Source of the DNA: Desmodesmus armatus
Taxonomy: Eukaryota > Chlorophyta > Chlorophyceae > Sphaeropleales > Scenedesmaceae
Length of the DNA: 64,000 nt
Reading direction: 5' to 3'
NCBI GenBank assembly: GCA_007449985.2
Contig: VIIQ02000166.1
Location: 55,391-119,390, forward strand
The notes beneath the pieces were generated by a model. That model was given only the letters and a program-made list of their open reading frames with translations. It did not search any database and was not told the DNA's origin. This document shows positions 49,680 through 64,000 of the stretch, one piece after another; the first letter of the stretch is position 1, and every line of letters starts with the position of its first letter. Position numbers and translations under genes: made by a program.

Positions 49680-51807
49680 AGCGGAACAGGTAGCTGGCTC
49701 GGCCACCTCTTGTGTCTTCAGTGATCCCACTGCCTTACGCAGCAATGCTCAGCGCGCTGAGCAATTTTGACAATACTGAGCACACCTCGCACTGTGGGGT
49801 ACACGATCCACGCAAGCCGGGCCACGGGGGGGGGGGGGGGGGGCGGGGTCACACACACTGATCCCAAGCCACACAAGCCTGCACCTGAACAGGCGGACGG
49901 GCAAACACGATTTTGTCTGCCAAGCATGCCTCACAATACTCATTGTCCAACTCAAGCGCAAACTCACTGTGCTTAGCGCTACTTCACCCAATAAAATTCA
50001 AATTGCATCAAGCTGTGATCACACCAAGCTGTGTTCTCAATCTTGCCCTGTTGACAGAATGATCAGGACAGCCATCAGATCGTACTGTTGACAAATACGG
50101 TAACAGCCACCTCGCTACAGATGTCAAAAAGATACCTGCAACCCTGTCCATAGGGTTGCAAATCGTCACCTGCCCACCTCTGCTGCCAAGCGCACACAAC
50201 ACCCATACTATACTCCAGTGAAGCTCCAAATCTGCAGATCCTTCTCTGCTGCACACAGGCAAATGCTATCCATGGGAGGCCTCAACGACCAGTTTCTGCA
50301 ATTGCAGAAACACAGCGACGACATCAACACTGTTACAACACGCCTATCAGTCCAAGTGTCTTACACACTCCCTACTTCTCCCCTACAGACTACTACTAGG
50401 ACTGCCAGAGATTCCGGCAAGGACAGGGTTGAGGGAGCACTTGGGTCGAAACCCCACAGACGTTCCCGTGTCACTGCACTGACCGCCAAAAACATAGCTG
50501 GTTGAAGCCTTCTCCACGCCACAGTAATGTGTCATCAGCTGCTGCAGCAGAACCAGCAGCAGGCAACAGGATACGACACGTGACTACAGGGCACACCAGG
50601 AGACTGAACATTCAACATGCGGTTTTGCCTTCTCACCAAGCATCAACCTCGCTCAGGTGATGCGATATGGCAACAACACACTATGAAGCTTGAGATCTGC
50701 CCTCACACAGGGTACTGTGTAGTGCACTGGTGCAGGCCAGCGCGGGTCGCATGAGCTGCAAGCAATAGCTACAGAGGTCCATGCTACAACTCACACCAGC
50801 GGAGCGGGCTGGCTGCCAAGCAGCATTTGTTCAACAGGTGCGCTGACGCAGTGTTGACCCAATAGCATTGCTGCTTGGGGGTACACTCACGCACACCCCA
50901 CAAAGCCAGCTTGATGACAGGCAGCAGCACAAGTAGCCTTACCTTGTAAAAACCACAGGTAGAATGGATTGGCTGCAGGGTTGGGGCCCTTTCTCAAGCA
51001 GCGCCGTGACCTGCTCCAACAAAGCAAGTGGACCATCAGAATCACCTGACACGAGCAGCAGCTACACTGACCGATTCCTGCTGAGTGAGCAGTAATCCTC
51101 ACAGGAAGGTTATGCTGTGTACAAGGCTATACAACACATGCCTTAGCAGAATCAGTGTGATAGTTGACTAATCATGTTGAGTCAACAAGGACTCTGGGTG
51201 ATATCAGATCATGCCAGATACTGCTGCGTGGCAGTGCTATTATTGGTGGTTAAGTGCTTGGGAGTTGTATGCGATGAGTTTGGTGCTGCGATGCACAGGA
51301 TCACTGGCGGGTTCAGGGTTTACCGCCTGCAGTGCCGATTCCTTTGTGCCGCTGTGGTGCTCTGTGCGTCGCACTCGGCTTTGACAGTGCTTGGTGTAAA
51401 CTTCTGGCAGTGTTTCCCGAGTACTCGCTCATTTGAATCCCCAATTCAGAGCGCACAGGTGCAGCAACCAGCCCCAGCAGCGACCTGTGGTCGAACCGGG
51501 TGCCTGAACATCACTCATACATTCATACAGCGCATCAACACTTTGCAAAGGACTACAAGTGAGTATCTGCTACCCTCAGAGCAGCCAGCTGGCTGCGAAG
51601 CATCATTGCTGCAAGCTTTAGGCAGCAAACCACAAGCCGAGTGCCACATTTGCATTTATACACTTGTAGTAGCTCGCTAGTGCTCAACTGCGGGCGCTAG
51701 TGAAAGGGCCACTAGTGGGTGGTGGGCGCTGCCACGTGCCTGGCTACTGGGGGCATCGCGGCGCGTCTAGTAAGCATTAAGGTGTTTTAAATACTATTAT
51801 AGTTTAC
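49680..51807. other. region left of the Ty3 element
   Basis: No supported gene. It holds a poly-G run at 49826-49842. One long ORF (51174-51680) has a hydrophobic N-terminal part and a donor-like ACAA|GTGAGT near 51556; it may be a leader exon of the element or chance. The left end or left LTR of the retroelement should lie here but was not recognised. Confidence 0.4.
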
Positions 51808-54800
51808 TTGCGTGGGTTTTTGGGAAGATCCACTGGTGCATTTCAGAGCTGGCCCATTTCCAGGCTGGCTTCTTCAGCGGGCAGGCGTGGACAGCAGCCA
51901 TTTCCAACGTCTGGATCGCTTTCGGAGCAGTTCCAATCGGTGGTTCGGCAAGCTGTTGGTCAAGTGCGTGCGTCGGAGGAAGCAGGTGGCGCTGACAACC
52001 AGGAGAATTTGGGCTCTGGACTGATCAGCTACTCTGGTGACCAGGATCAGCACATTGGCGAGCAGCAGGAGGACAGCACTCTTGTTTTCACCAATCCACT
52101 CTTCGAGCAGGCCACCAGCAGCATGGCTGGCCTTGGCAGTCTGTCTTTTGGGGGCAAGCTGGACTCTGGAAGCAGCAGCAGCAACTCCATGATACCAAAG
52201 CTATGGTCTGGACAGCCTGGAGTGGATTCCTTCGGAGAATGGCAGCGTGCTGTCAGGTGGAACCAGGGCCAAAAGCGCAATGCAGCCATGGACAAGAAGC
52301 TGGACAAGCACTCTGGTGAAGAGATTGCCGAGATTGCCCAGTTGACTGTCATACGCTCCGATGGTGCCAAAGCAGTGGAGCAGGCTGGGCAGGTCTTGGA
52401 GAAACATGTCAGGGCTGCTGACCAGGGCTGGTATCCTCCACAGGAGCTGGAAGCAGCTGCTCTGGAGTTTGTGCGCAAGCGTCACCCCAACAGTGACTTG
52501 GCAGAGCAGACGCTGGCAGCATTGATCAAGGAGAGGTATGAGAAAGTACACATTGCTGCGGTTGCCAAGGGCTGGGCACTTGAGGACAGTGTTGGGCTGG
52601 AGCAGGCGCTGACAGCAAACTCTTCGCCACTTGTGCAGCAGCAGGACTCAACTGGCAACAGCAGCGGCGGTGGCGGCGGCGGCCTGCCTCCTGCAACAAC
52701 AGATCCTATGCAAACTGCTATGCTGGGCTTCTTCAAAACGCTCAGTGACAGGCTGGTCAAGAGCACGCAGGACAATAAATACTTCATGACTGTGGGGATG
52801 AGGAAGTGGAGCCCTCACAGCTGTGTCATGGAGCTTTTCTGGTGTATGATGGACGCAGCATACGGAGTGGCCAGCAGCAAGGAGCAGGCTGAGTTCTACC
52901 AGCTGCAGAGTGAGGGTTCCCAGGGCAGCAGGCAGGTGCAGGAGTTTGCGCAGCGCGTGGCAGTGCTGTATGAGAGTGTCAAGACACTGGGCATTGTGCC
53001 AGCAGGTGCAGACATTACCACCTTCTGCAAGGGTCTCAGCAATGCCAGCAGCAGGCAGTTTGCACGGCAGCGCAAGGAGGAGTACTATGCGTCCAACAGA
53101 ACTCACATTGCGCTGGAATCACTAGCTGACCAAGTTCAGCAATTCGAGAAGAACCTCCACCAGGATGGCGTGCTGGCGCAGCAGGCATTGATTATGGTGG
53201 GCAACAGCAGTGTGGGAGCTGGAAGCAGCAAGAACGCCCGGCGCGCAGGTGAGGAGAGTACACTGGTGCAGACGCTGCTGCGTTCTCGCCGGGAGAATGA
53301 GGCTACACAGCAGTACCTCAGCAAGATGGGTGCGCGTGAGAAGCTGCTCATCACCAAGGGCTTTGACATGGCGGAGATCGACCCCAAGGACCCCTCTGCT
53401 GTCTGCCTGGACTGTCCTGCAACAAAGCGGCCACACCTGAACCAAGACTGCAAGGGCAGGCGCATGGCGGGGCTGGCTATGGCAGCAGCGCAGGAGGGCA
53501 GCACTGCCAACAAAAGCAGCAGCAGCATTGGCAGCAGCGCTGGAACCTTGGACGTCAACACGCTGGCAATCATGGTGCAGCAGGCAGTGGCTATGGCAGC
53601 AGCAGGAGCAGGCGCAGCACCGGCAGGACTGGGGCAAGGGCTGCCAAGGGCTTACAACAAGCCAGAAAACAGCAGGGGTAACAGGGGCTATGGTGGCAGC
53701 AACGGCAGGCAGCAGCAGTACGCAGGGCCACCTGGCTTGGGTGTTGGGTCAGCAGTTATGGCGTGTGTCATCTGTGGCTTTGCCAAGGGCCACTCAGATG
53801 GTGTCTGCTATATGGACAAGCCAGAGCTGGCTCCAGAGAAGTGGGAGGGCCCCACGGAGCGTGCACCTGAGCAGGGGATGGTGCACTACATCTCCCGCTG
53901 CATGCAGCAGAAGCTGAAGCCACGGCTGGGGCGTTGCAAGGAGCTGCTGCGGAGGATGATGCAGAGCAACAAGCTGCCGCCAGCTATGCAGCAGTTCATT
54001 GGACAGCACACACAGCAGCAGCGGTACATGAACATGGCTTATGGCGCAGCAGCAGAGCCGTATGGGGCTTATGCAGCTTACATGACAGGCATGGGGTCTG
54101 CTGGTTCCAGCTACTGGCCCATGGGCGGCTCGGCAATGCAGCAGCCAATGGCAGGGCTGCCACCCTCTCACACACCGCTGGCTATCACTGGTGCAGTTGG
54201 CGACAGCACCGGTGAACAAGCAGCAATGATGGTGCTGCCGGATGCAGGCGGGTATGTGAGTGAGGAGCAGCAGCAGGAAACAATGCACTTTGGGCCCTCT
54301 TTCTGTTATGTGGGCTTAGCAGACTGGCAGCAGGATCTGGCAGGTGGGCTCTTTGACTCAACGGGACATGAGTATGCACTGGTTGGGACACGTGCACAGG
54401 CAGGAGCTGGTGCAGTGCAGCAGGGCAGGGTTGTCAGGCAGCCTGTGCCCAAGGGCTTCCTACCACCCTCAGCTCTTCCTACAGACCTGAATGCCATGCG
54501 TTCCATGCCACGCATCACCAATGCACTGGTTGCTGGCTTAGGAGAGCTGGACGGCACCAGCAGGGGGCTACTGCACACGCTGCTTGACATTCAGCGGTTT
54601 GTGGCGAGCAGGGTATCTGCTTTTGGAGACCTTCTGGGTGTGCAGGAGGCTGGTGGAGCACATGGTAGCAGCAGTGCACAGCAGGGAGGGCAGCAGGCTC
54701 TGCAGGAGGCAACAGCAGCAAAGGGTACTGCCAGCATGGTGTCCAGCAGCAGTTCTGGGCGCTGTGGCCCTGTTGCAGCAGCGGCGGCAAGCAGCCGCAG

Positions 54801-56550
54801 CCTCCTGGAGTCAGTCATGCTGCAGTATGGCTTCAAGCCAGTGGCAATCGATTACACCCTACGCCAGTCAATGCCTGTGACGCTGGACTTCCTGGTGGGC
54901 ACGAACAAACAGGAAGGATTGACACTAACAACCCCGGATGGGCGTGATGTGCTAGTAGATATGGCGTTCCAGGACTCAGGTGCCACACTGCTGCTGTTCA
55001 CTGAGGTGGCTTGTGGCGAGTGGGGTACTTACATCTTCAGAACAAATCAGGTGCCGTCTGTCAAGGGCATTGATGGGCTGCCGTCCAAGAAGATTATCGG
55101 CAGGACAGGACCGCTGGTTCTCACACTTGCCAAGGGACACCCACTGGCAGCAGTCCTGCCCGTTCCGTGTGCTTGGGTGCTGGAGGGAGACGCGGGTGGC
55201 ATGTTTAAGGTGTGCTTGGACAAGAAGACACTGCTGCCGGTGTTTGGGTATGTGGATCCAGCCCTCAACATGCTATGCTTCCGTCCCAAGGCAGCACAGG
55301 GCAGGCTTGACATTATACACGGCATTCCCGTGCGTGGCTATGTCAAGAACGGCAACAGCAGCATCAGCAGTGGCAACATGGCGGCTGCCACCATCTGGGA
55401 GGAGGACAGCAGGGACACAGAGGAGCTTGAGGGCTCAGCAGCAGCAGTGCCGGGCATCAACTACAGGCCGTTTACTGCAGAGGAGAACACTCTAGCCAAT
55501 GCAGAGCTCGAACGGCTGCTTCAGGCAGGAGTTATCACAGAACTGGATGCTGGGCCATTTGAAGTGAACGATCGCTGGTACTTGGACCACCTGGGCCTGA
55601 ATGGTGGTGTGCCACAGCAGGTGCAAGAGGACTTGGACAGCAGCAGCTCCACTGGGTCAACCGCTATGCCTGAGCTGTGCACAGGCAGTGACAGCGACAG
55701 TCTCCCAGAGCTGGTGGATGCTTACAACCCAGTGACTGCTGACATCGAGTATTTCAGCCCTCATGGCAGTGCAGCAGATGCTTGGCTGCAACAACAAACT
55801 GGGGGTGAGCACAACAAGCGCAGGCGCCGGCGTGGGCGCGGCCGCAAGGGCAGGGGGCGGCAGCAGCAGCAGCAACAGCAGGAGCAGGAGCAGGAGCAGG
55901 CAGAAGCACAGCAGCCACTGGAGGAGCCAGCAGGCAAGCTATGGGGCTTTGACTGGTCCAAGGCTGCTGGTCAGCTGCTGCCGGGCATCAGCTGGATCAC
56001 GACACACATGGTGCTGCTGCTGCTAGGCATGTTCCACTTCTTTGTGGACTTGCCGCTGAGGAAGTACCCCTCAAAGATCATGCGTGGATTGGTCAGCATG
56101 GCGGGAGCAGCAGTGCGCCCAGGCAACCCCATGCGCGCAAGGGAGTATAATGTGGCAGAACCTGTGCCCACTAACAACCTTGGCGACACACGGCGCGCAC
56201 GCAAGCGTCGGCACAACAGAGGGCCCAGGCCAGGCCCTGGCTTGCAACCGACGGCAGAGCAGGACGCACCGCAAACAAAGGTCTCTGTGGTCGCCACAGT
56301 GCGTCACTCTGGCAAGGTCATCACTGCGCGCACAGTGCTGATGTGCCTACTCTGTTTCTTCTCAGTGCTGTGCTCCACAGCAGCAATGCAGGTTACCAAC
56401 AGCATTGGGGCAGCAGCCACTGGATCAGCACTGCAAGCTGGCTACTTTCCCCTGCCACATGGCGTCCCACCACACCTCAACATGCACTTGCTGCAGCAGG
56501 AGCTTGCCAACCTGCATTGCAGTAGGTTTCGCTGCTACAGCAGAGCATGA
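51808..56550 (+). CDS. ORF1: Gag-aspartic protease polyprotein
   Basis: 1580 codons from a TTG after the in-frame stop at 51778; the first ATG is at 52123 (residue 106), the likelier start unless an upstream exon exists. Residues about 307-460 resemble a Gag capsid (LYESVKTLGIVPAGADITTF, LESLADQVQQFEKNL). Two zinc-knuckle variants follow: CLDCPATKRPHLNQDC (533-548, C-x2-C-x6-H-x4-C) and CVICGFAKGHSDGVC (653-667, C-x2-C-x5-H-x4-C). The retroviral-type protease has its active site in MAFQDSGATLLLF (Asp1056). A basic KRRRRRGRGRKGRGR patch precedes two hydrophobic segments (about 1397-1417 and 1509-1527). Protease in the Gag frame, and membrane-like segments after it, are unusual for Ty3 elements. 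Its last 146 bases overlap ORF2. Confidence 0.85.
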   Translation: MRGFLGRSTGAFQSWPISRLASSAGRRGQQPFPTSGSLSEQFQSVVRQAVGQVRASEEAGGADNQENLGSGLISYSGDQDQHIGEQQEDSTLVFTNPLFEQATSSMAGLGSLSFGGKLDSGSSSSNSMIPKLWSGQPGVDSFGEWQRAVRWNQGQKRNAAMDKKLDKHSGEEIAEIAQLTVIRSDGAKAVEQAGQVLEKHVRAADQGWYPPQELEAAALEFVRKRHPNSDLAEQTLAALIKERYEKVHIAAVAKGWALEDSVGLEQALTANSSPLVQQQDSTGNSSGGGGGGLPPATTDPMQTAMLGFFKTLSDRLVKSTQDNKYFMTVGMRKWSPHSCVMELFWCMMDAAYGVASSKEQAEFYQLQSEGSQGSRQVQEFAQRVAVLYESVKTLGIVPAGADITTFCKGLSNASSRQFARQRKEEYYASNRTHIALESLADQVQQFEKNLHQDGVLAQQALIMVGNSSVGAGSSKNARRAGEESTLVQTLLRSRRENEATQQYLSKMGAREKLLITKGFDMAEIDPKDPSAVCLDCPATKRPHLNQDCKGRRMAGLAMAAAQEGSTANKSSSSIGSSAGTLDVNTLAIMVQQAVAMAAAGAGAAPAGLGQGLPRAYNKPENSRGNRGYGGSNGRQQQYAGPPGLGVGSAVMACVICGFAKGHSDGVCYMDKPELAPEKWEGPTERAPEQGMVHYISRCMQQKLKPRLGRCKELLRRMMQSNKLPPAMQQFIGQHTQQQRYMNMAYGAAAEPYGAYAAYMTGMGSAGSSYWPMGGSAMQQPMAGLPPSHTPLAITGAVGDSTGEQAAMMVLPDAGGYVSEEQQQETMHFGPSFCYVGLADWQQDLAGGLFDSTGHEYALVGTRAQAGAGAVQQGRVVRQPVPKGFLPPSALPTDLNAMRSMPRITNALVAGLGELDGTSRGLLHTLLDIQRFVASRVSAFGDLLGVQEAGGAHGSSSAQQGGQQALQEATAAKGTASMVSSSSSGRCGPVAAAAASSRSLLESVMLQYGFKPVAIDYTLRQSMPVTLDFLVGTNKQEGLTLTTPDGRDVLVDMAFQDSGATLLLFTEVACGEWGTYIFRTNQVPSVKGIDGLPSKKIIGRTGPLVLTLAKGHPLAAVLPVPCAWVLEGDAGGMFKVCLDKKTLLPVFGYVDPALNMLCFRPKAAQGRLDIIHGIPVRGYVKNGNSSISSGNMAAATIWEEDSRDTEELEGSAAAVPGINYRPFTAEENTLANAELERLLQAGVITELDAGPFEVNDRWYLDHLGLNGGVPQQVQEDLDSSSSTGSTAMPELCTGSDSDSLPELVDAYNPVTADIEYFSPHGSAADAWLQQQTGGEHNKRRRRRGRGRKGRGRQQQQQQQEQEQEQAEAQQPLEEPAGKLWGFDWSKAAGQLLPGISWITTHMVLLLLGMFHFFVDLPLRKYPSKIMRGLVSMAGAAVRPGNPMRAREYNVAEPVPTNNLGDTRRARKRRHNRGPRPGPGLQPTAEQDAPQTKVSVVATVRHSGKVITARTVLMCLLCFFSVLCSTAAMQVTNSIGAAATGSALQAGYFPLPHGVPPHLNMHLLQQELANLHCSRFRCYSRA
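56405..56550 (+). other. ORF1/ORF2 overlap, probable +1 frameshift region
   Basis: ORF2 is open in the +1 frame relative to ORF1 from at least 56405 (TTG, not ATG), while ORF1 stops at 56548-56550. ORF2 has no convincing ATG before its conserved RT-leading region, so it is probably expressed as an ORF1-ORF2 fusion by ribosomal frameshifting, as known for Ty3. The slip site was not pinpointed; an intron is a less likely alternative. Confidence 0.6.
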
Positions 56551-59500
56551 TTCTGGCCAAGTGAAGTGGTACCAGGCCGACCCAGCAGCTCTGGACCAAC
56601 TTGGGCCCGATGGCGCAACAGAAGATGTGCATGACGCCAGATGGACAGTGCACGATGAGGGCAAATGGATCTTGGGCAACCACCCAGATGCATCGCCTGC
56701 ACAAATGGACCAGCTGGTGCAGATGCTGTTGGAGGAGCGAGGGGCATTTGCTTACAGTCTGCAGGACTTGCCTGGCTACACAGGGGACGTAGCTGACTTC
56801 AAACTGATCGATCCCTCCAAACGTATGTGGAGCGCACCCAGACGCTACACAGAAGAGGAGGTGAAGTTTGCCAAGGAGAAGGTGCAGGAGATGCTGGATG
56901 CGGGCATCGTAAAAGAAATTCCAACGACCTGTCCGCATGCTTCAGCTATCACGTTGCCTATGAAGCGAGCACCCGACGGTAGCTGGACCGACAAGCGGTT
57001 CTGCATCGACCTGCGCAACGTCAACGGCAACACAGTGGTGGACAGTTACGGCCTGCCACTACCGGAAGAACTGTTTAGGCGAATTAGGGGGCACAAATTC
57101 TTGGTCAAGGCGGACTTTAGAGCGGGCTTTTGGCAGCTCAACCTGAGCGAAGAGGCGCAGCAGCACGTGGCCTTCCACGCACCCGACAGTGGCAAGCGAC
57201 TGACCTACACGCGGCTGTGTTTTGGTCACGTGAACGCCACGGCAATTTTCCAGCGGGTTATGGAGAAGGAGCTGGCAGCAGCTGGTTTGTCTCACTGTGC
57301 GGCGCCGTTCGTCGATGACGTTATCATGTGGTGCGACACCTGGGAGGACATGGTGACCAACTTCAGAACACTTCTACAGCATCTCAAGACAGTGGGCTTG
57401 CGCCTGCACCCTGCCAAGACAATCGTGGGTGCAGACTGCTTGCCTTACCTGGGTCACCTGGTATCAGCCAAGGAGTGCAAGCCGGAGCCAGCCAAGATTG
57501 CAGGCATCAAGGCACTGCAGCCACCCACCAGCCTCAAGCGCCTGCAGGCCCACCTTGGCCTGTTTAATTACTACAGGTGCTATGTGCCCAACTTTGCCAT
57601 CATTGCCAGGCCGCTTTACAAGCTTATGGAGAAGGGTGCGCAGTACATCTGGAGTGATGACTGTAACCAGGCGTATGAGGGGCTTCGAACGGCGCTGTGC
57701 AAGAAGGGTTTGGGGCTCAGGCAGCCTGTGGATGGGCGCAGTTTTCATCTGTATGTCGACTGGAGCAACACGGGCATTGCAGCTGTGCTGAATCAGGAGG
57801 CGGAGGATGGGACGGAGTACATGGTGGCCTGTGCCAGCAGGTCCCTCAATGCAGCTGAGCAGAACTATCCCGCCTGGAAAGGCGAGATGATGGCAGCAGT
57901 GTGGGGCGTCAAAATGTACAGGCCGTACTTGCACTCCAGGGAGTTCTATCTCCACAGCGACCACCGGGCGCTGTTATGGCTGCTGACACAGAAGACACCA
58001 GTGGGGCAGCAGATGCGTTGGATTCTGGCACTTCAGGAGTACCGCTTCTCACTGGTGCACAGGGCAGGCAAGTCAAACCCAGCTGATGTGCCTAGCAGGG
58101 AAGCCAGTAGCTGTGTGGCAGACACCACTGGAGCCAGGTTGGACACGGAGCTGCATGACTGGGTGCCCACTGTGCTTCTGCCAGACTGCAAAACAACGGA
58201 CCCACTGGTCTACACACATGACAGTCTGGCACTGGAGCTGGGCATTGGCAGCAAATCAACAGCAGCAGCTGGAGTGGCAGCAATGGCTTATGAGGAAACA
58301 CCTGGTGACTGCCCAATCCTTCACAGCCCAGCAGCAGCGCTGGCGGCAGAACCAGCAGACAGCTACAGTCATGAACAGCTGGAGCACGAGGCGTTGTGTT
58401 GTCTACTGTGCAGCAACGAGTCTGCAGTGGACACATTCGCCCCAACCGCCGACTCATTGCTGGGGGGGGAGACAGCAGGACAACTTTTTGCTGACGATGG
58501 CTGCTGCGTGGACACACAACACCCAGCAGTAGCTTGGCGGCAGCATGACCTACAGCAGGCAGCATCGGCGTGGGTCACATTGGCAGGGCTACAACAGCCC
58601 CAACCGGACAGCTTCCAGCCAGGAGTGTACACAGGTGCATTGGACCCCTGGGGCGTAAGGGAGACACAAGGGCTGTGCACGGCTACTGTGGCAGACACGT
58701 TCTTCCCGGCAGCGCTGCAGCAGGGCATCGTGCTTTATGAGCCGTTTGGTGGCATCTGCGCAGGGCTGGAGATGGTGCTCAGGAGTGGCATCACAGTCAA
58801 ACAGTACCTGTACAGCGACATCAACCCCATGGCACAGCGGGCGGCGTTACACAGGATCAGGGTGCTGCAAAGCATGTATCCCAAGCAGCTACCGGAGGAT
58901 GCTTTGGCTGGCAGTTTCAGCATTCTTCCCATGGATGTGAGGCACATCACCACACAGCAGCTCAGCAAGGCTGTCAGCGAGGCACCAGTCAAGCAATGGC
59001 TGGTAGTAGGAGGCTGGCCCTGTCAAGACTTCTCTGCAGCAGGCAAGTCACAGGGGCTTCGGGGTGATCGGGCTCAACTGCTGTTTGACCTGGTCAGGGT
59101 AGTGGGAGCGTTGCAACAGCTACTCCCACACCAGCCCCCAGCCTACCTGGTGGAGAATGTGCTCTTGCAGCAGCACAGGCTGAGCAGCATCAGTCAGCAT
59201 GACTTCAATAAAATCAAGGCGTGCCTAGGGTTACCTGTGGTGCTGGACGCAGCACAGTTTGGCAGCCTTGCACATCGGGCGCGCAACTTCTGGTCCAACC
59301 TGGTTGGGCCCAGTCAACTGCGAGCAGCTTTGGCATTTGTCAAGAGGCCACCCGCACGCAGCGTACAGCTTGCCTTGGGACCTGGCAGGACCGCGCAACC
59401 TGTCAACCGACCAGACGCTGCTCCTCTCTACCCCTGCAACGCACCAGGGCAGCCTCGCGCAGCCTGGCCTACCTTGGTCAGCAGCGCACGCTCCTACGCC

Positions 59501-62155
59501 TTCAGGCCTGGCCAGCCTGGCAGTGTTTTGGACACAACGGTGCCTGCTGTAGTCAAGTGGGGCGAGCCAACAGCAGAGGAGAGAGAGGTAGCTCTGGGCT
59601 ATCTTCCAGGCAGCACAGCAGCAGCAGGCCTCACACAAGCGCAGCGGTGTGCGTTGCTCGGTGAAAGCATGGATGCCAACACTTTGCAGGTGCTCATGGC
59701 CATCGCCAAGGCTTGGTTCCTGCGGGGCCTGCCTACCTCTACTGACTTGGCGACACGTGCATTCAGCGCACACGAAGGGGAACTGGCGCAGGAGTGGCCT
59801 GGCAGAGAGGCAACTGCAACCCCACATGGCTATCAGCAGCAGCTAGCCATGACAGCTGGCTACCAGGAGAACACTACGGCTACGAGCCAAGGTGACATCT
59901 GGGCCGACGATAAGACCCTGGAGTACATCAGAACAGGGCAACTCCCACAAGACCTGGCAGCCAGCCAGGCAGCACGTATCAAGCGACGTGCACGCTCATA
60001 CTACTTCAAGGACCAGCAGCTGATCAGGAGGATGCCAGATGGCACCGACAGGCTGGTACCTCCACCACAGGCGCGTGCTGGTCTCATACGGCAGCAACAC
60101 GAGATGTGTGGGCACTTTGGCAGGCGGCGCACCTCAGCCATGCTACTCAGTAAGCACTGGTGGTATGGGTTACTGGCGGACGTTGCAACAGTGCTGTCAC
60201 GCTGCGAGCACTGCAGCAGGGTGCATGCCAGCTTCACCGCCAAGCCGGAGGAGCTGCGCCCCATTCCAATCAGCAGCATGGGTTTCAGGTGGCACGTGGA
60301 CACAGCTGGGCCACTACCCAAGAGTGCAAAGGGCAACAAGTATGTGCTGGTGTGTGTTGAGGCATTCAGCAAGTACCTGGTGGTGGTGCCGATGGAAAAC
60401 GACAAGGCGGAGACCACTGCATACCACTTCTTGCACGGTGTATTGGCACACTTTGCAGCACCAGGGCAGGTGGTGACAGACTCAGGGACAGAGTTTGAGG
60501 GCGAGTTTGCCAAGCTCCTGGAGGATGCGCTCATCGATCATGCCATCATCAGTGCAGACCACCCTCAGGCCAATGGTCAGGCAGAGAAGGCTGTGCACAT
60601 CGTCAAGCGGGCGCTTACCAAAATGGCAGTGGCAAGGCACAGTGTCAAGCAGTGGGATGAGGACTTGGCATGGCTGGCACTGGGCTACCGCTGCTCTCCA
60701 CAGGCCAGCACAGGCCACAGCCCGTACGAACTCATGTATGCACGTCCACCGGTCATTCCACCTGCAGTGAAGGAGCTTGTCAGCACACCCCTGGACATCA
60801 GTGCTGAGGCGGCTGTCAAGGACCTACTGCAGCGTAAGGAGCGGCTAAAGCAGCAGGTGCCCATTGCGCTGGAGAACCTGGCGATTGCACAGCACAGGGA
60901 TCAGCGCCGTTACCTGCAGCTGCGTGCGCCTGACTACAAGCCACGCGTTCACAGGTTTATGGTGGGTGACTACGTCTACACTCAGCAGCTTAACCGGGCA
61001 AGCAAGCTACAGCCCAGGGCCAAACCCCTCATTCTGCGAGTTCTGGAGGTGCGGGACTCTGGGGTACTGCACCTGCAGGGGCGCTGTGGCCGGACCATTG
61101 AGGTGCACATGTCTCACTGTGCACCCTGCCACTTGCCTGATATCGACGGCGGCATCGACCCACTGCTGGTGGACAACACAGATGATGTGGTCTGTGAGGT
61201 ATGCAGCACCAGCGACAACGGGGCCGAGCTCATGCTGTGTGACGTGTGCAACAGCGGATACCATACCTACTGCTTGCAACCACCACTCAGCAGTGTGCCT
61301 GACGGTGTGTGGCTGTGCCCGGAGTGTGTGGACGCTGGCTACACAGAACAGGATGCTGCTGGCAGGGAGCAGCAGCGGCAGCAGCTACAGGAGCGGGAGG
61401 CCAGGCCAAACATATTCCCCGGCGCGCAAATGAAGCGCAGGGACGAAGCAGCACATGCGCTGCATGGCCGACTGGTGCTGAAGGCGTTCACGGATCCAGC
61501 CACCGGGAAAGGCAGGAAGTACTGGGGCAGGATCTACTTCAAGGATGCTGAGTCACGCCCATACTACTTCCGAGTGGTGTACGAAGATGGGGACTCTCAC
61601 CACGCCACCATGGCAGGCATCAAGCGCTACCTGCAGCCGGAGGATGCAGTGCTGCCACCTGGGGCCAGCATTCCTACACCAGAGTCACTGGCAGCAGCAG
61701 TGGCGTACGCACGACAGCTGGTCAGCAGGGTTGCTGGCGGTTCAGTAGCTGTTCCTTCCACAAGGGTCTCACCGGCAGATGTGCAGTTGCTGCAGCTTAC
61801 AGTGCAGATGTCCCTGGTTCAAGCCCTGGTGGACCCACTAACACTCAACACCCAGTGGCAGCAGGTTTTTGCTGGGCGACCGTTCACTGTGGGCTGCGGG
61901 CCTGTACAGCACGGCGCTACAGCCATCATCATTACACCTACAGCACCCTTTGTGCTTCATGCAGTTTTCACAGCACTGCAAATGAGGCCATTGGTGGTGC
62001 TCTGTTACGTGCCTTCACTGGCGTTTCCAGCTGACATCCACCCTCTGTTCAGTGCACTCAAGCAGCAACGGCGAGCAGCAGCATTCAGGGGCAAGAATGG
62101 CTGCTGGCTGGTGCTCAGTAGGCAAGGCATAGACATCGACAACTGGCTGCATTGA
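56405..62155 (+). CDS. ORF2: RT-RNase H-DNMT-integrase-PHD-Tudor-like polyprotein
   Basis: 1916 codons, uninterrupted, TGA at 62153. RT: LVKADFRAGFWQLNL (Asp237) and FVDDVIMW (303-305). RNase H: LYVDWSNTGIAAVLNQ (Asp452), ASRSLNAAEQNYPAWKGEM, LHSDHRALLWLL. A linker of about 160 residues follows, then the cytosine methyltransferase (777-1110). Integrase: HEMCGHFGRRRTS ... CEHC zinc site from His1232, then Asp1299 (WHVDTAGPL), Asp1359 (VVTDSGTEF) and Glu1394 (NGQAEKAVH), and a C-terminal SH3-like part (VGDYVYTQQ). PHD finger at 1597-1641, Tudor-like domain at about 1688-1750, then about 165 residues of unknown function. All catalytic residues looked for are present. It would copy and integrate the element; the extra modules suggest chromatin marking and reading. 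Confidence 0.9.
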   Translation: MGQQPLDQHCKLATFPCHMASHHTSTCTCCSRSLPTCIAVGFAATAEHDSGQVKWYQADPAALDQLGPDGATEDVHDARWTVHDEGKWILGNHPDASPAQMDQLVQMLLEERGAFAYSLQDLPGYTGDVADFKLIDPSKRMWSAPRRYTEEEVKFAKEKVQEMLDAGIVKEIPTTCPHASAITLPMKRAPDGSWTDKRFCIDLRNVNGNTVVDSYGLPLPEELFRRIRGHKFLVKADFRAGFWQLNLSEEAQQHVAFHAPDSGKRLTYTRLCFGHVNATAIFQRVMEKELAAAGLSHCAAPFVDDVIMWCDTWEDMVTNFRTLLQHLKTVGLRLHPAKTIVGADCLPYLGHLVSAKECKPEPAKIAGIKALQPPTSLKRLQAHLGLFNYYRCYVPNFAIIARPLYKLMEKGAQYIWSDDCNQAYEGLRTALCKKGLGLRQPVDGRSFHLYVDWSNTGIAAVLNQEAEDGTEYMVACASRSLNAAEQNYPAWKGEMMAAVWGVKMYRPYLHSREFYLHSDHRALLWLLTQKTPVGQQMRWILALQEYRFSLVHRAGKSNPADVPSREASSCVADTTGARLDTELHDWVPTVLLPDCKTTDPLVYTHDSLALELGIGSKSTAAAGVAAMAYEETPGDCPILHSPAAALAAEPADSYSHEQLEHEALCCLLCSNESAVDTFAPTADSLLGGETAGQLFADDGCCVDTQHPAVAWRQHDLQQAASAWVTLAGLQQPQPDSFQPGVYTGALDPWGVRETQGLCTATVADTFFPAALQQGIVLYEPFGGICAGLEMVLRSGITVKQYLYSDINPMAQRAALHRIRVLQSMYPKQLPEDALAGSFSILPMDVRHITTQQLSKAVSEAPVKQWLVVGGWPCQDFSAAGKSQGLRGDRAQLLFDLVRVVGALQQLLPHQPPAYLVENVLLQQHRLSSISQHDFNKIKACLGLPVVLDAAQFGSLAHRARNFWSNLVGPSQLRAALAFVKRPPARSVQLALGPGRTAQPVNRPDAAPLYPCNAPGQPRAAWPTLVSSARSYAFRPGQPGSVLDTTVPAVVKWGEPTAEEREVALGYLPGSTAAAGLTQAQRCALLGESMDANTLQVLMAIAKAWFLRGLPTSTDLATRAFSAHEGELAQEWPGREATATPHGYQQQLAMTAGYQENTTATSQGDIWADDKTLEYIRTGQLPQDLAASQAARIKRRARSYYFKDQQLIRRMPDGTDRLVPPPQARAGLIRQQHEMCGHFGRRRTSAMLLSKHWWYGLLADVATVLSRCEHCSRVHASFTAKPEELRPIPISSMGFRWHVDTAGPLPKSAKGNKYVLVCVEAFSKYLVVVPMENDKAETTAYHFLHGVLAHFAAPGQVVTDSGTEFEGEFAKLLEDALIDHAIISADHPQANGQAEKAVHIVKRALTKMAVARHSVKQWDEDLAWLALGYRCSPQASTGHSPYELMYARPPVIPPAVKELVSTPLDISAEAAVKDLLQRKERLKQQVPIALENLAIAQHRDQRRYLQLRAPDYKPRVHRFMVGDYVYTQQLNRASKLQPRAKPLILRVLEVRDSGVLHLQGRCGRTIEVHMSHCAPCHLPDIDGGIDPLLVDNTDDVVCEVCSTSDNGAELMLCDVCNSGYHTYCLQPPLSSVPDGVWLCPECVDAGYTEQDAAGREQQRQQLQEREARPNIFPGAQMKRRDEAAHALHGRLVLKAFTDPATGKGRKYWGRIYFKDAESRPYYFRVVYEDGDSHHATMAGIKRYLQPEDAVLPPGASIPTPESLAAAVAYARQLVSRVAGGSVAVPSTRVSPADVQLLQLTVQMSLVQALVDPLTLNTQWQQVFAGRPFTVGCGPVQHGATAIIITPTAPFVLHAVFTALQMRPLVVLCYVPSLAFPADIHPLFSALKQQRRAAAFRGKNGCWLVLSRQGIDIDNWLH
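58733..59735 (+). other. C5-cytosine DNA methyltransferase domain (DNMT3-like) inside ORF2
   Basis: Residues 777-1110 of ORF2. Motif I: YEPFGGICAGLEMVL, followed by GITVKQYLYSDINP. DVRHIT precedes motif IV: VVGGWPCQDFSAAGKSQGL with catalytic Cys873. Motif VI: AYLVENV (Glu917). Motif VIII: AQFGSLAHRARNFWSNL; the AHRAR-FW-N form is that of DNMT3-class enzymes rather than the bacterial QxRxR. Motif IX-like: WPTLVSSARSYAF. Motif X-like: EEREVALGYLPGST, then LTQAQRCALLGESMDANTL. All elements are in the usual order, so this is a complete catalytic domain, not a fragment. It lies between RNase H and integrase. Target preference is unknown; the recognition region between VIII and IX is short. Confidence 0.88.
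61193..61327 (+). other. PHD finger inside ORF2
   Basis: Residues 1597-1641 follow the Cys4-His-Cys3 PHD pattern: CEVCSTSDNGAELMLCDVC, then NSGYHTYCLQPPL, then WLCPEC. PHD fingers usually bind the histone H3 tail. It directly follows the integrase C-terminal SH3-like region, the position occupied by a chromodomain in many Ty3 chromoviruses. Confidence 0.9.
61466..61652 (+). other. Tudor-like domain inside ORF2
   Basis: Residues about 1688-1750: GKGRKYWGRIYFKD followed by YYFRVVYEDGDSHHATMAG and IKRYL. The W/Y-G-x-I ... YxVxYEDGD pattern is typical of Tudor-like folds in plant and algal chromatin proteins. Assignment is by pattern only. Confidence 0.5.
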
Positions 62156-62335
62156 GCACTGGATGCTCGGTTCATTATCTCGGTCCGGTTTCGCTAAGAC
62201 GGCGCAGTAGTAGCTTAGCACCAAGGGGCTTCAAGGAAGGGGGGGCATGATAGTGCATACTGCAGGCTGACTAAGCAGGTGATTAGCTGACACGCTCAAC
62301 CTTCTGTCCTGCACTGCTAACCTCTCCACTGTGCA
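62156..62335 (+). promoter_or_regulatory. inter-ORF region with purine tract and splice acceptor
   Basis: Contains the purine run aaggaaggggggg (62233-62245), followed by catgatag, and further on a branch-point-like ctgctaac with acceptor ctctccactgtgcag|g ending at 62336. The first could be a polypurine tract, the second could join ORF3 to an upstream donor in a subgenomic RNA. Confidence 0.45.
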
Positions 62336-63260
62336 GGGCGTGTTCTCATTTATGCCCGACACAGCACCTGGTGCCAGCAGTGTAATAGAGGAGCAGCTGG
62401 ACTACGGGGAGGACTCCTGGGAGGAGTTGCAGGAGCAGCCAGTCAGTGAGGAAGTGGCACTGCTAGGATCTGGAGAGGAGGAGTTGCCTCAGCAGCCAGA
62501 CAGTGAGGGTGCAGAGCAGCCGGACTTTGGGGGCGAGGGCTTGCCTGAGGAGCCCATGCAGCAGGACATAGCAGCTCACATGGACCTGCCTGCAGCAGTA
62601 GCGGAGGACCCAGCCGGCCAACTGGTCACGAGGGTACGCGCAATCTACCATGGGCTTCGGCGGGACAGGGATGAGCTGAGGGGTATTGACAGGAGCTTGT
62701 GGCAGCTTACACTAGAGCAGCAGCGATGGGTGGAGCGCGAAGCAGCAATGGACGTGCTTGGCATCACCCGTGTTGCATGTCACCTTGGCGGCTATGCCAA
62801 CGGGATGTCAGAGGACCTCACAGTTGCGGCAAGGCGGGCAAAGGAGGCAGACCAGCACATGCTGCAGAATGCAGATACAGACTTGGAGGCAGAAGCAGCA
62901 CGGGCAGCTGCAGCAAGGGAGGCTGCAGCAAGGGAGGCTGCAGCAAGGGAGGCTGCAGCAGCTGAAGCACTTGCAAAGGAGGCAGCAGCGAAGGCAAGGG
63001 TGCAGAAGGGAGCATACGCAGGAGCGCAGCGGGGCCGCGGCCGCAGCACCCTGCCGACAACAGTGAGCGCAAGCCCAACACGGCAGCAGGGCCGCAGCAA
63101 GGGCCGCGGCAAGGACGACAACCAGGACCGTGGTGGTCGCAGCAGCAGCAAGTACGACATGGACGGGCCTCCCAAACCGCAGACGTACCTGAGTACGAGC
63201 TCCCTCCTTTGGGCTTTACCCGCAACAACTGCAGGGTGGGCAAGGACGGTTATGGATTAG
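62331..63260 (+). CDS. ORF3: accessory protein, unknown function
   Basis: 309 codons from GTG; the first ATG is about eight codons in (FSFMPDTAPG). No family recognised. Domains seen: an acidic Glu/Pro/Gln-rich N-terminus, a predicted helical middle (AIYHGLRRDRDELRGIDRSL, QQRWVEREAAMDVLG), an Ala/Glu coiled-coil-like stretch with a 15-nt DNA repeat (AREAA x3, about 62915-62960), and a basic Arg/Gly/Lys/Ser-rich tail (GRSKGRGKDD). The basic tail suggests nucleic-acid binding. It occupies the env position of some retroelements but has no signal peptide or membrane segment. Open sequence continues in other frames to a donor-like GCAG|GTAATG at 63420, so the 3' part may be spliced or frameshifted. 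Confidence 0.5.
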   Translation: MQGVFSFMPDTAPGASSVIEEQLDYGEDSWEELQEQPVSEEVALLGSGEEELPQQPDSEGAEQPDFGGEGLPEEPMQQDIAAHMDLPAAVAEDPAGQLVTRVRAIYHGLRRDRDELRGIDRSLWQLTLEQQRWVEREAAMDVLGITRVACHLGGYANGMSEDLTVAARRAKEADQHMLQNADTDLEAEAARAAAAREAAAREAAAREAAAAEALAKEAAAKARVQKGAYAGAQRGRGRSTLPTTVSASPTRQQGRSKGRGKDDNQDRGGRSSSKYDMDGPPKPQTYLSTSSLLWALPATTAGWARTVMD

Positions 63261-64000
63261 CAGGAGTTATGGATTACCAGGGCACGTGGTTCCCAGTGGC
63301 AGCACACGACCCAGCGCACAACCCGGAGAAGAACCCAAACTTAACGACACATGCCCAATCTGCTTCCTGCGAACAGCATACAAGCAGGATCGCTGGCATA
63401 CCGTTCCAACACCCGGCGCAGGTAATGATATGGCAGAGACAGCAGGTGCTGCCGCAGCAATTAGCAGCAGCAGCAGCAATTGCTGGGCCGTCTGGATTGG
63501 CCTTTGGTAGCGACAACAGCTTTTGGCAGCAGTGGTTTAAGGCCGTCTGGAGTGGCCTCTCTGGAGCGATGGTTTTGTGCCAGCTGGGGGTGCCCAGACT
63601 GGCAAGCAGCTTTGCAGGAGGTTGGGAGCAGCAGTTGATTTATTGGACATTGTGGATAGTAGCTTGGCCTTTCACATGCGAACGATGTGGGGGCATCTGT
63701 CCTGCTTGCATGTTGGTTGGGATTTAGCAGCAGTGAGCGCAAAGGGCCACTGTTTGTGCTTGTCAAGCTCAGTGAATATGCTTCCTGAGTAGTTAAGTGA
63801 GTGCTGCATGACTCACTTGTGTGCAGCAGATCCAGCATGGCTGGGTTTTGTTTGTCAATTATGTGTGTGTGTTTTATTGACTGTGCAATGCACAAACATC
63901 ACATGCGTTGTAGTGTGTGTGCCCAGCGTCTGGATGTGCCTAGATGCCGTGGTGAGAAAAGACAAAAAACAAAATGTCTGTTGACTGTGTTGTGTGGTCA
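63261..64000 (+). other. right end of window
   Basis: A second frame remains open to 63727 and encodes a cysteine pair (TCPICFLRTAYKQDRW in one frame, ending at a GCAG|GTAATG donor). Beyond 63730 only low-complexity TG-rich sequence is seen. No repeat of sequence left of 51808 was found here, so a right LTR, if any, is outside. Confidence 0.4.

Follow-up and report, generated by a model that had tools for sequence, protein, structure and literature searches.

We propose that a Ty3-type retrotransposon of the green alga Desmodesmus armatus carries a DNMT3-like cytosine methyltransferase that was captured once, has been retained under selection and acts on the cDNA of the element itself. In this view, the cDNA would be circularised and then inserted by the integrase; for this reading as a whole we put the probability at a little under one half (about 0.48). 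The copy described here lies in the window (the 64,000-nucleotide stretch that was analysed, C162:55391-119390 of the 115.8-Mb assembly). The contig stops at window position 64000, about 160 bp short of repeat B1 by comparison with the copy on contig C13; the 3' end (B1-A2-B2) is therefore missing from the window copy and was read on other contigs.

Gypsy elements with a DNMT3 domain and split repeats are of a published kind; in the literature searched we did not come across this chlorophyte lineage, an account of how old it is or the present interpretation of its ends. We recognised no description of a chlorophyte Ty3 DNMT3 clade in the literature; absolute priority is not claimed. In the portions of these sources available to us, an opinion paper reports Dam- and Dcm-encoding Ty3 and DIRS elements with green algae among the hosts (PMC6338049), a survey finds no DNMT3 among MMETSP green algae (PMC9998398), and the retroelement DNMT3 named in a recent survey is that of streptophytes and dinoflagellates (PMC12344493).

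A predicted methyltransferase within a Ty3 Pol polyprotein

The window copy begins with repeat A1, preceded by host DNA ending in AATCACC, and contains three open reading frames (Table 1). For A1, 40 exact full-length matches are listed in the genome, the window copy included, with 40 of 80 candidates scored. The order of reverse transcriptase (RT), RNase H and integrase in ORF2, together with a D,D35E integrase whose triad was assigned by eye, places the element in Ty3/gypsy; Pfam found no chromodomain in ORF2. No Pfam family exceeded its cut-off in ORF1 and none was found in ORF3, which contains a 15-bp tandem repeat and is rich in Ala, Arg and Glu. ORF2 lies in the +1 frame at the overlap with ORF1 (window 56342-56550), an arrangement that would call for frameshifting or a separate start.

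Table 1. Features of the element copy in the window.
Feature	Position	Strand	Remarks
Repeat A1	51047..51634	+	588 bp, starts TG; left end of element
Putative self-primer donor GCACTCGGCTT inside A1	51371..51381	+	predicted RNA 5' end
Putative primer-binding site AAGCCGAGTGC at A1 border	51634..51644	+	
ORF1, gag-like	51808..56550	+	motifs read by eye
ORF1 CCHC-like knuckle	~53764	+	our motif reading
ORF1 DSGA protease-like motif	~54973	+	our motif reading
ORF2 (pol)	56405..62155	+	+1 frame relative to ORF1, overlaps ORF1; open for 1916 codons
Reverse transcriptase (RVT_1)	57008..57457	+	ORF2 residues 202-351, Pfam
RNase H (RT_RNaseH)	57737..58042	+	ORF2 residues 445-546, Pfam
Predicted DNMT3-like C5-cytosine methyltransferase	58733..59735	+	ORF2 residues 777-1110
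Predicted catalytic Cys873 of methylase	59021-59023	+	
ENV motif of methylase	59153-59161	+	residues 917-919
Integrase zinc-binding domain (H2C2)	60059..60226	+	ORF2 residues 1219-1274, Pfam
Integrase core (rve)	60287..60586	+	Pfam; D1299, D1359, E1394 (D,D35E), triad assigned by eye
PHD finger	61193..61327	+	ORF2 residues 1597-1641, Pfam E 9.8e-12
Weak Tudor-like stretch (PTM_DIR17_Tudor)	61466..61600	+	ORF2 residues 1688-1732, below Pfam cut-off
ORF3	62331..63260	+	low complexity; 427-aa open frame in copy C13

An earlier note on this DNA had claimed a complete set of C5-methyltransferase motifs between RNase H and integrase in an uninterrupted ORF, and had proposed a profile search of ORF2 as a check. 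The Pfam search returned DNA_methylase (PF00145) over residues 866-962 (E 2.2e-10; bit score 40.9, cut-off 22), and motifs I (EPFGG, 779), IV (GWPCQ with Cys873), VI (ENV) and VIII (AHRAR, 956) all lie where they had been placed, so that the claim is confirmed. An AlphaFold2 model of residues 740-1115, built from a 40-sequence alignment, reached a pLDDT of 95.9 and a pTM of 0.93, superseding an earlier model from eight sequences (pLDDT 49.5). DNMT3A and DNMT3B are the best solved matches of the predicted structure, DNMT3 enzymes are nearest among solved structures by sequence as well as by fold, and the motif order is unpermuted. By its motifs and predicted fold, it is a complete DNMT3-like cytosine methyltransferase domain. 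Two protein searches gave no match whose name assigned it to a DNMT class, and the PHROGs and NCBIfam profiles gave general DNA-methyltransferase families only. Bearing on a possible viral origin of the methylase, one contig with phage-like ORFs (in our reading) in a viral collection showed 29% identity over part of the methylase, and viral predicted structures also matched it (best E 9e-15).

The presumed catalytic cysteine is present in all 116 sequences with a residue at the site, with three gaps, in an alignment of 119 (the window copy and its homologues, ten from the same genome; eight of 126 matches were dropped for length). The usually invariant proline before it in motif IV (window 59018-59026) varies: among 193 relatives it is Pro in 116, Glu in 65, Ser in six, Ala in four and Asp in two, with at least 11 Pro/Glu changes mapped on the RT tree. 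Glutamate at this position could alter activity. In Tetrabaena socialis, three Pol proteins of the same clade (P0199, P0198 and P0204) have a degenerate methylase core; that of P0199 lacks PCQ, so gaps at the cysteine are not all truncations.

Behind the integrase, ORF2 encodes a PHD finger that did not feature in the earlier note's list. Its best solved matches include CHD4, the KDM5 family, PHF12 and BAZ2B. The PHD fingers of CHD4, KDM5 and BAZ2B read the histone H3 tail.

Copies, selection and probable capture of the methyltransferase

PF00145 has 64 matches in the genome, of which 37 rows carry the score of family F1 (44.8 bits) and 16 of these 37 the full 1937-aa open frame; the 37 rows overstate the number of distinct insertions, as some contigs share a flank (for example, C558/C559 and C581/C582). 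Contigs frequently break within copies, as would be expected if an assembly artefact or a chance ORF were involved, but the same open frame recurs in those 16 rows, several families encode the domain and a public protein search returned 115 homologous proteins. We consider an artefact to be a negligible possibility, and the misjoin that the earlier note had allowed for is rejected, the domain being far from unique to the window. Relative to the copy on C13, those on C654, C589 and C629 and the window copy differ by 1, 2, 3 and 13 substitutions, respectively, in 13-14 kb (indels uncounted), from which we conclude that F1 multiplied very recently.

Two further families, F2 (C78, C774, C167, C379 and others) and F3 (C180 and C589), have methylases with 52-58% identity to that of F1. 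On C180, two related F3 elements (L022-L023) lie close by in opposite orientation. Elsewhere, P0004 and P0037 encode the domain set; we read their names as having the form of transcriptome-assembly accessions. The same genome also contains a methylase-free Ty3 family with a chromodomain recognised by eye (L062, C78:25500-33999), with a 1442-aa ORF that is complete in 17 rows; taken as a methylase-free control, this chromovirus showed no direct repeats within 8.5 kb.

Paired identities of methylase, RT and integrase are 58/49/50% for F1-F3, 61/61/65% for F1-F2, 55/53/53% for F2-F3 and 88/91/95% within the F3 pair, which makes the methylase about as conserved as the core enzymes. dN/dS is 0.11 for F2a/F2b and 0.12 for F3a/F3b, at dS of 0.71 and 0.78; it is higher, at 0.24 and 0.37, in two pairs of very young copies (dS about 0.03). 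From these substitution patterns the methylase appears to be kept under purifying selection. Could the domain nevertheless serve a structural purpose or bind cDNA, with catalysis weak or absent? The replacement of the motif IV proline in 77 of the 193 relatives and the degenerate Tetrabaena cores would fit such a role. Against it, in a wider set of 215 sequences the cysteine is found in all 193 with a letter at the site (22 gaps), motif VI retains its Glu in 192 and its Asn in 191 of 195 sequences, and within the F3 pair the methylase dN/dS of 0.09, slightly above RT (0.06) and integrase (0.04), is far below 1. We therefore regard a non-catalytic domain as quite improbable.

The methylase is present in 125 and absent from 30 of 155 sampled RT-bearing proteins, and on an RT tree rooted on the chromovirus from the same genome its bearers make up 125 of the 129 tips of one clade (support 0.87); the sample is biased towards methylase bearers, as two of its three source protein searches were queried with the methylase, and one source contributed the best 120 of 159. 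The four methylase-free tips are P0163, P0164 and P0165, which also lack the integrase, and P0201, in which the integrase follows after 203 residues and which has likely lost the methylase. The order RT, methylase, integrase holds in 63/63 proteins passing the coverage filter for all three, and patristic distances of the methylase correlate with those of RT (r 0.79) and integrase (r 0.76), values reached in 0/500 permutations each. Given that the bearers form a single RT clade, albeit in a biased sample, that the domain order is constant and that dN/dS is low, one old capture of the methylase is likely. The named members of the clade, Scenedesmus sp. PABB004 and Tetrabaena socialis, point to a wide spread. 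A profile search detects the PHD finger in 135 of the proteins collected.

Two sets of ends and a proposed path to integration

Full copies in all three families have the layout A1 - internal - B1 - GC - A2 - B2, with A and B of 588 and about 50 bp in F1, 527 and 194 bp in F2, and about 492 and 81 bp in F3. Among 41 A repeats of F1, 22 are of the form host|A1|internal, 17 are B1-GC-A2-B2|host, none is reversed and two are odd (C77 without B2, C590 with a truncated B2). The elements start with TG and end with CA. A 4-bp target duplication flanks six of eight complete elements (C13, C589, C654, C559, C78 and C180), that of C180 (GCTG) being ambiguous, as it may run on from the repeat border; the complete copies on C629 and C645 have none. 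Consistent with this length, in contigs that break within copies 12 of 17 distinct 5' flanks end in four bases that also open one of 14 3' flanks, compared with 1, 1 and 0 of 17 at shifted positions and 3, 0 and 1 for 3, 5 and 6 bases. The removal of near-duplicate flanks was crude: C88 was dropped (its CTAG matches C36), while C645 and C646, probably one site, were both kept.

Identical LTRs at both ends together with a short target duplication would mark a Ty3/gypsy LTR retrotransposon; here TG..CA ends and, in most complete elements, 4-bp duplications occur, but A1 stands alone on the left and A2-B2 on the right. The split direct repeats A1-B1-A2-B2 are those of DIRS/PAT elements, whereas the DDE integrase and 4-bp duplications are not. 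We reject a tyrosine-recombinase element, as Pfam scans of ORF1, ORF2 and the three ORFs downstream found no such enzyme.

A second set of ends can be predicted from the sites of reverse transcription. A stretch inside A1 is complementary to the A1 border over 11 nt in F1 (GCACTCGGCTT) and 12 nt in F2. Of 2000 random internal 16-mers, one and none, respectively, pair over such a length; no such complement was found at the A1 border of F3. By analogy, this is a putative self-primer layout. Tf1 has a self-primer of 11 nt. The likeness to the self-primed Ty3 elements Tf1/sushi and Tcn1, as far as the portion of the source available describes them (PMC6317226), lies in this 11-12-nt complement at the 5' border in two of three families; the present element differs from them in its split repeats, its methyltransferase and the lack of a Pfam chromodomain in ORF2. 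A G7 tract (GTGGGGGGG) lies 0-1 base before B1 in F1, F2, F3 and the F3 copy of C589, where it is placed as a putative polypurine tract preceding the repeat. These two positions would define B-GC-A as the repeat of reverse transcription, with its predicted ends shifted by one B length from the integration ends (TG-A...B-CA).

The A2|B2 junction varies among near-identical copies: C683 carries four or five additional bases there, C591 a 30-base piece from the region just after A1, and C59 19 bases of B, while one-base differences may be sequencing noise. C27, with GCTGAC after B2, was considered as a B2-GC-A remnant and dropped, as GCTG also ends the 5' flank of C528 and may be a target duplication. 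The B1-GC-A2 border has a palindromic core, GTCAGCTGAC in F1, GTCAGCTGTC in F2 and GACAGCTGTC in both copies of F3. A CpG stands one base before the cut CA in 4/4 att sites, CG(T/A)CA-GC-TG (C13, C78, C180 and C589; loci L011, L020, L023 and L025, respectively). According to the part of PMC1180852 available to us, prototype foamy virus integrase cuts both strands of a palindromic two-LTR junction after CA, which leaves 5' overhangs of 2 nt. The CA-GC-TG palindrome, here a putative cutting site, resembles that junction and differs in being internal to the repeat rather than at an LTR-LTR junction; the predicted cDNA end is about 50-194 bp away.

DIRS split repeats are proposed to be templated on the internal B1-A2 region. 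Were the same to occur here during reverse transcription, no end-joined two-LTR circle would arise; the order A1..B1-A2-B2, as in Ngaro, PAT-like and VIPER elements, and the single topology across the 41 A repeats both fit. Yet A2|B2 varies in near-identical copies exactly at the cDNA ends predicted from the primer site and polypurine tract, and the element has a DDE integrase and 4-bp duplications, with no tyrosine recombinase found. DIRS-style templating thus seems unlikely, if far from negligible. Given the offset of the two sets of ends, the A2|B2 scars, the palindromic border and the foamy-virus precedent, we prefer a model in which the circle is closed at A|B and the left palindrome is where it is opened. 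Against this circle stands the fact that either palindrome could be opened, while the other product was seen in 0/41 A repeats; our guess is that the palindrome used is favoured by its shorter distance from the joined ends (about 50-194 bp, compared with 490-590 for the other). A linear intermediate could explain C629 and C645, which lack a duplication, and C77. The latter (L028) ends at A2 followed by CTAC, and the 5' flank of C535 (L051) also ends in CTAC, possibly through insertion via a linear cDNA end.

Based on these observations, our model is as follows. First, reverse transcription would start from the self-primer at the A1 border, with the plus strand primed from the G7 tract, to give a cDNA with B at its left end and A at its right. 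Joining of these ends would then close a circle and produce the A2|B2 scars, and the methyltransferase would mark the free cDNA or the circle, which would come to resemble host DNA. Finally, the DDE integrase would cut the palindrome where B meets A in the left repeat and insert A1...B2, with the PHD finger reading histone H3 at the target.

Possible role of the methyltransferase, and related elements

Methylation of the element's own cDNA is likely, we infer, and marking of the free circle is our first choice because an unmethylated circle would stand out in a presumably CpG-methylated nucleus. The interpretation offered in the earlier note, of an element that could methylate its own cDNA or its target, is partly supported. 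The CpG observed/expected ratio is alike in the element (0.41-0.52, window copy) and the surrounding host DNA (0.42-0.58; about 0.5 for the window), with no self-specific mark visible. Loss of the methylase in P0201 and of the catalytic motif in P0199 suggest that the enzyme is not strictly needed.

The main rival is that methylase and PHD finger act on chromatin after integration, marking the new copy or its surroundings and so hiding it or limiting copy number. Such a role would suit a polyprotein that unites a reader, the PHD finger, with a writer. Between two F3 copies, 42/124 transitions and 17/85 transversions fall at CpG (sites counted if either copy has CG), where CpG bases make up about 8%; this transition excess and the CpG-poor genome are in line with CpG methylation. 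However, no result links the enzyme to an integrated copy, some other PF00145 matches resemble exons of ordinary genes (e.g. C146), in which case the host may methylate its own DNA, and F1 has multiplied recently rather than staying limited. Action after integration is thus a serious alternative that we nonetheless think improbable, and marking of free cDNA remains our preferred reading.

The earlier note had referred to the capture of methyltransferases by retroelements, and these cases are indeed published: KnitGypsy-Dnmt3 of Klebsormidium nitens, a Gypsy Pol with DNMT3 and DIRS-like repeats, and dinoflagellate SymbioDIRS-Dnmt3 (de Mendoza et al. 2018, PMC5890265; as described in the portion available). 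When expressed in yeast, the SymbioDIRS enzyme methylates CG, and the KnitGypsy enzyme showed no activity, a result that the authors called inconclusive (PMC5890265). With KnitGypsy-Dnmt3 the present element shares a DNMT3-type domain in a Gypsy Pol, purifying selection and A-coding-B-A-B repeats; it comes from another host lineage, and the two are likened by described features, not by sequence. No Klebsormidium sequence was recognised among the matches listed in the protein searches. Target duplications, TG..CA ends, a self-primer, scars and a PHD finger were not found mentioned for KnitGypsy in that portion of the paper. SymbioDIRS-Dnmt3 likewise has DNMT3 in Pol and A-coding-B-A-B repeats, but has a tyrosine recombinase and a dinoflagellate host, in contrast to the DDE integrase here. 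DIRS, PAT and Ngaro elements, as covered in the part of PMC6681497 available, share the split direct repeats and in some cases a methyltransferase; they have the tyrosine recombinase not found in the present element.

Our findings suggest that a retrotransposon can keep a cytosine methylase as a long-term core component and not a passing passenger. As cDNA ends, joining scars and integration ends leave separate records in the copies, circular cDNA as an integration substrate becomes testable, and the many near-identical recent copies of one retroelement are suited to that old question. A bolder proposal, which we hold to be unlikely, is that in this Ty3 lineage the DDE integrase normally uses circular cDNA, opened at the repeat-internal palindrome, with the methylase core to the circular stage. 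If true, methylase capture would track circular cDNA in unrelated retroelements, namely DIRS with an adenine methylase, SymbioDIRS-Dnmt3, KnitGypsy-Dnmt3 and the present clade, and methylation of the CpG beside the cut CA could gate the integrase cut.
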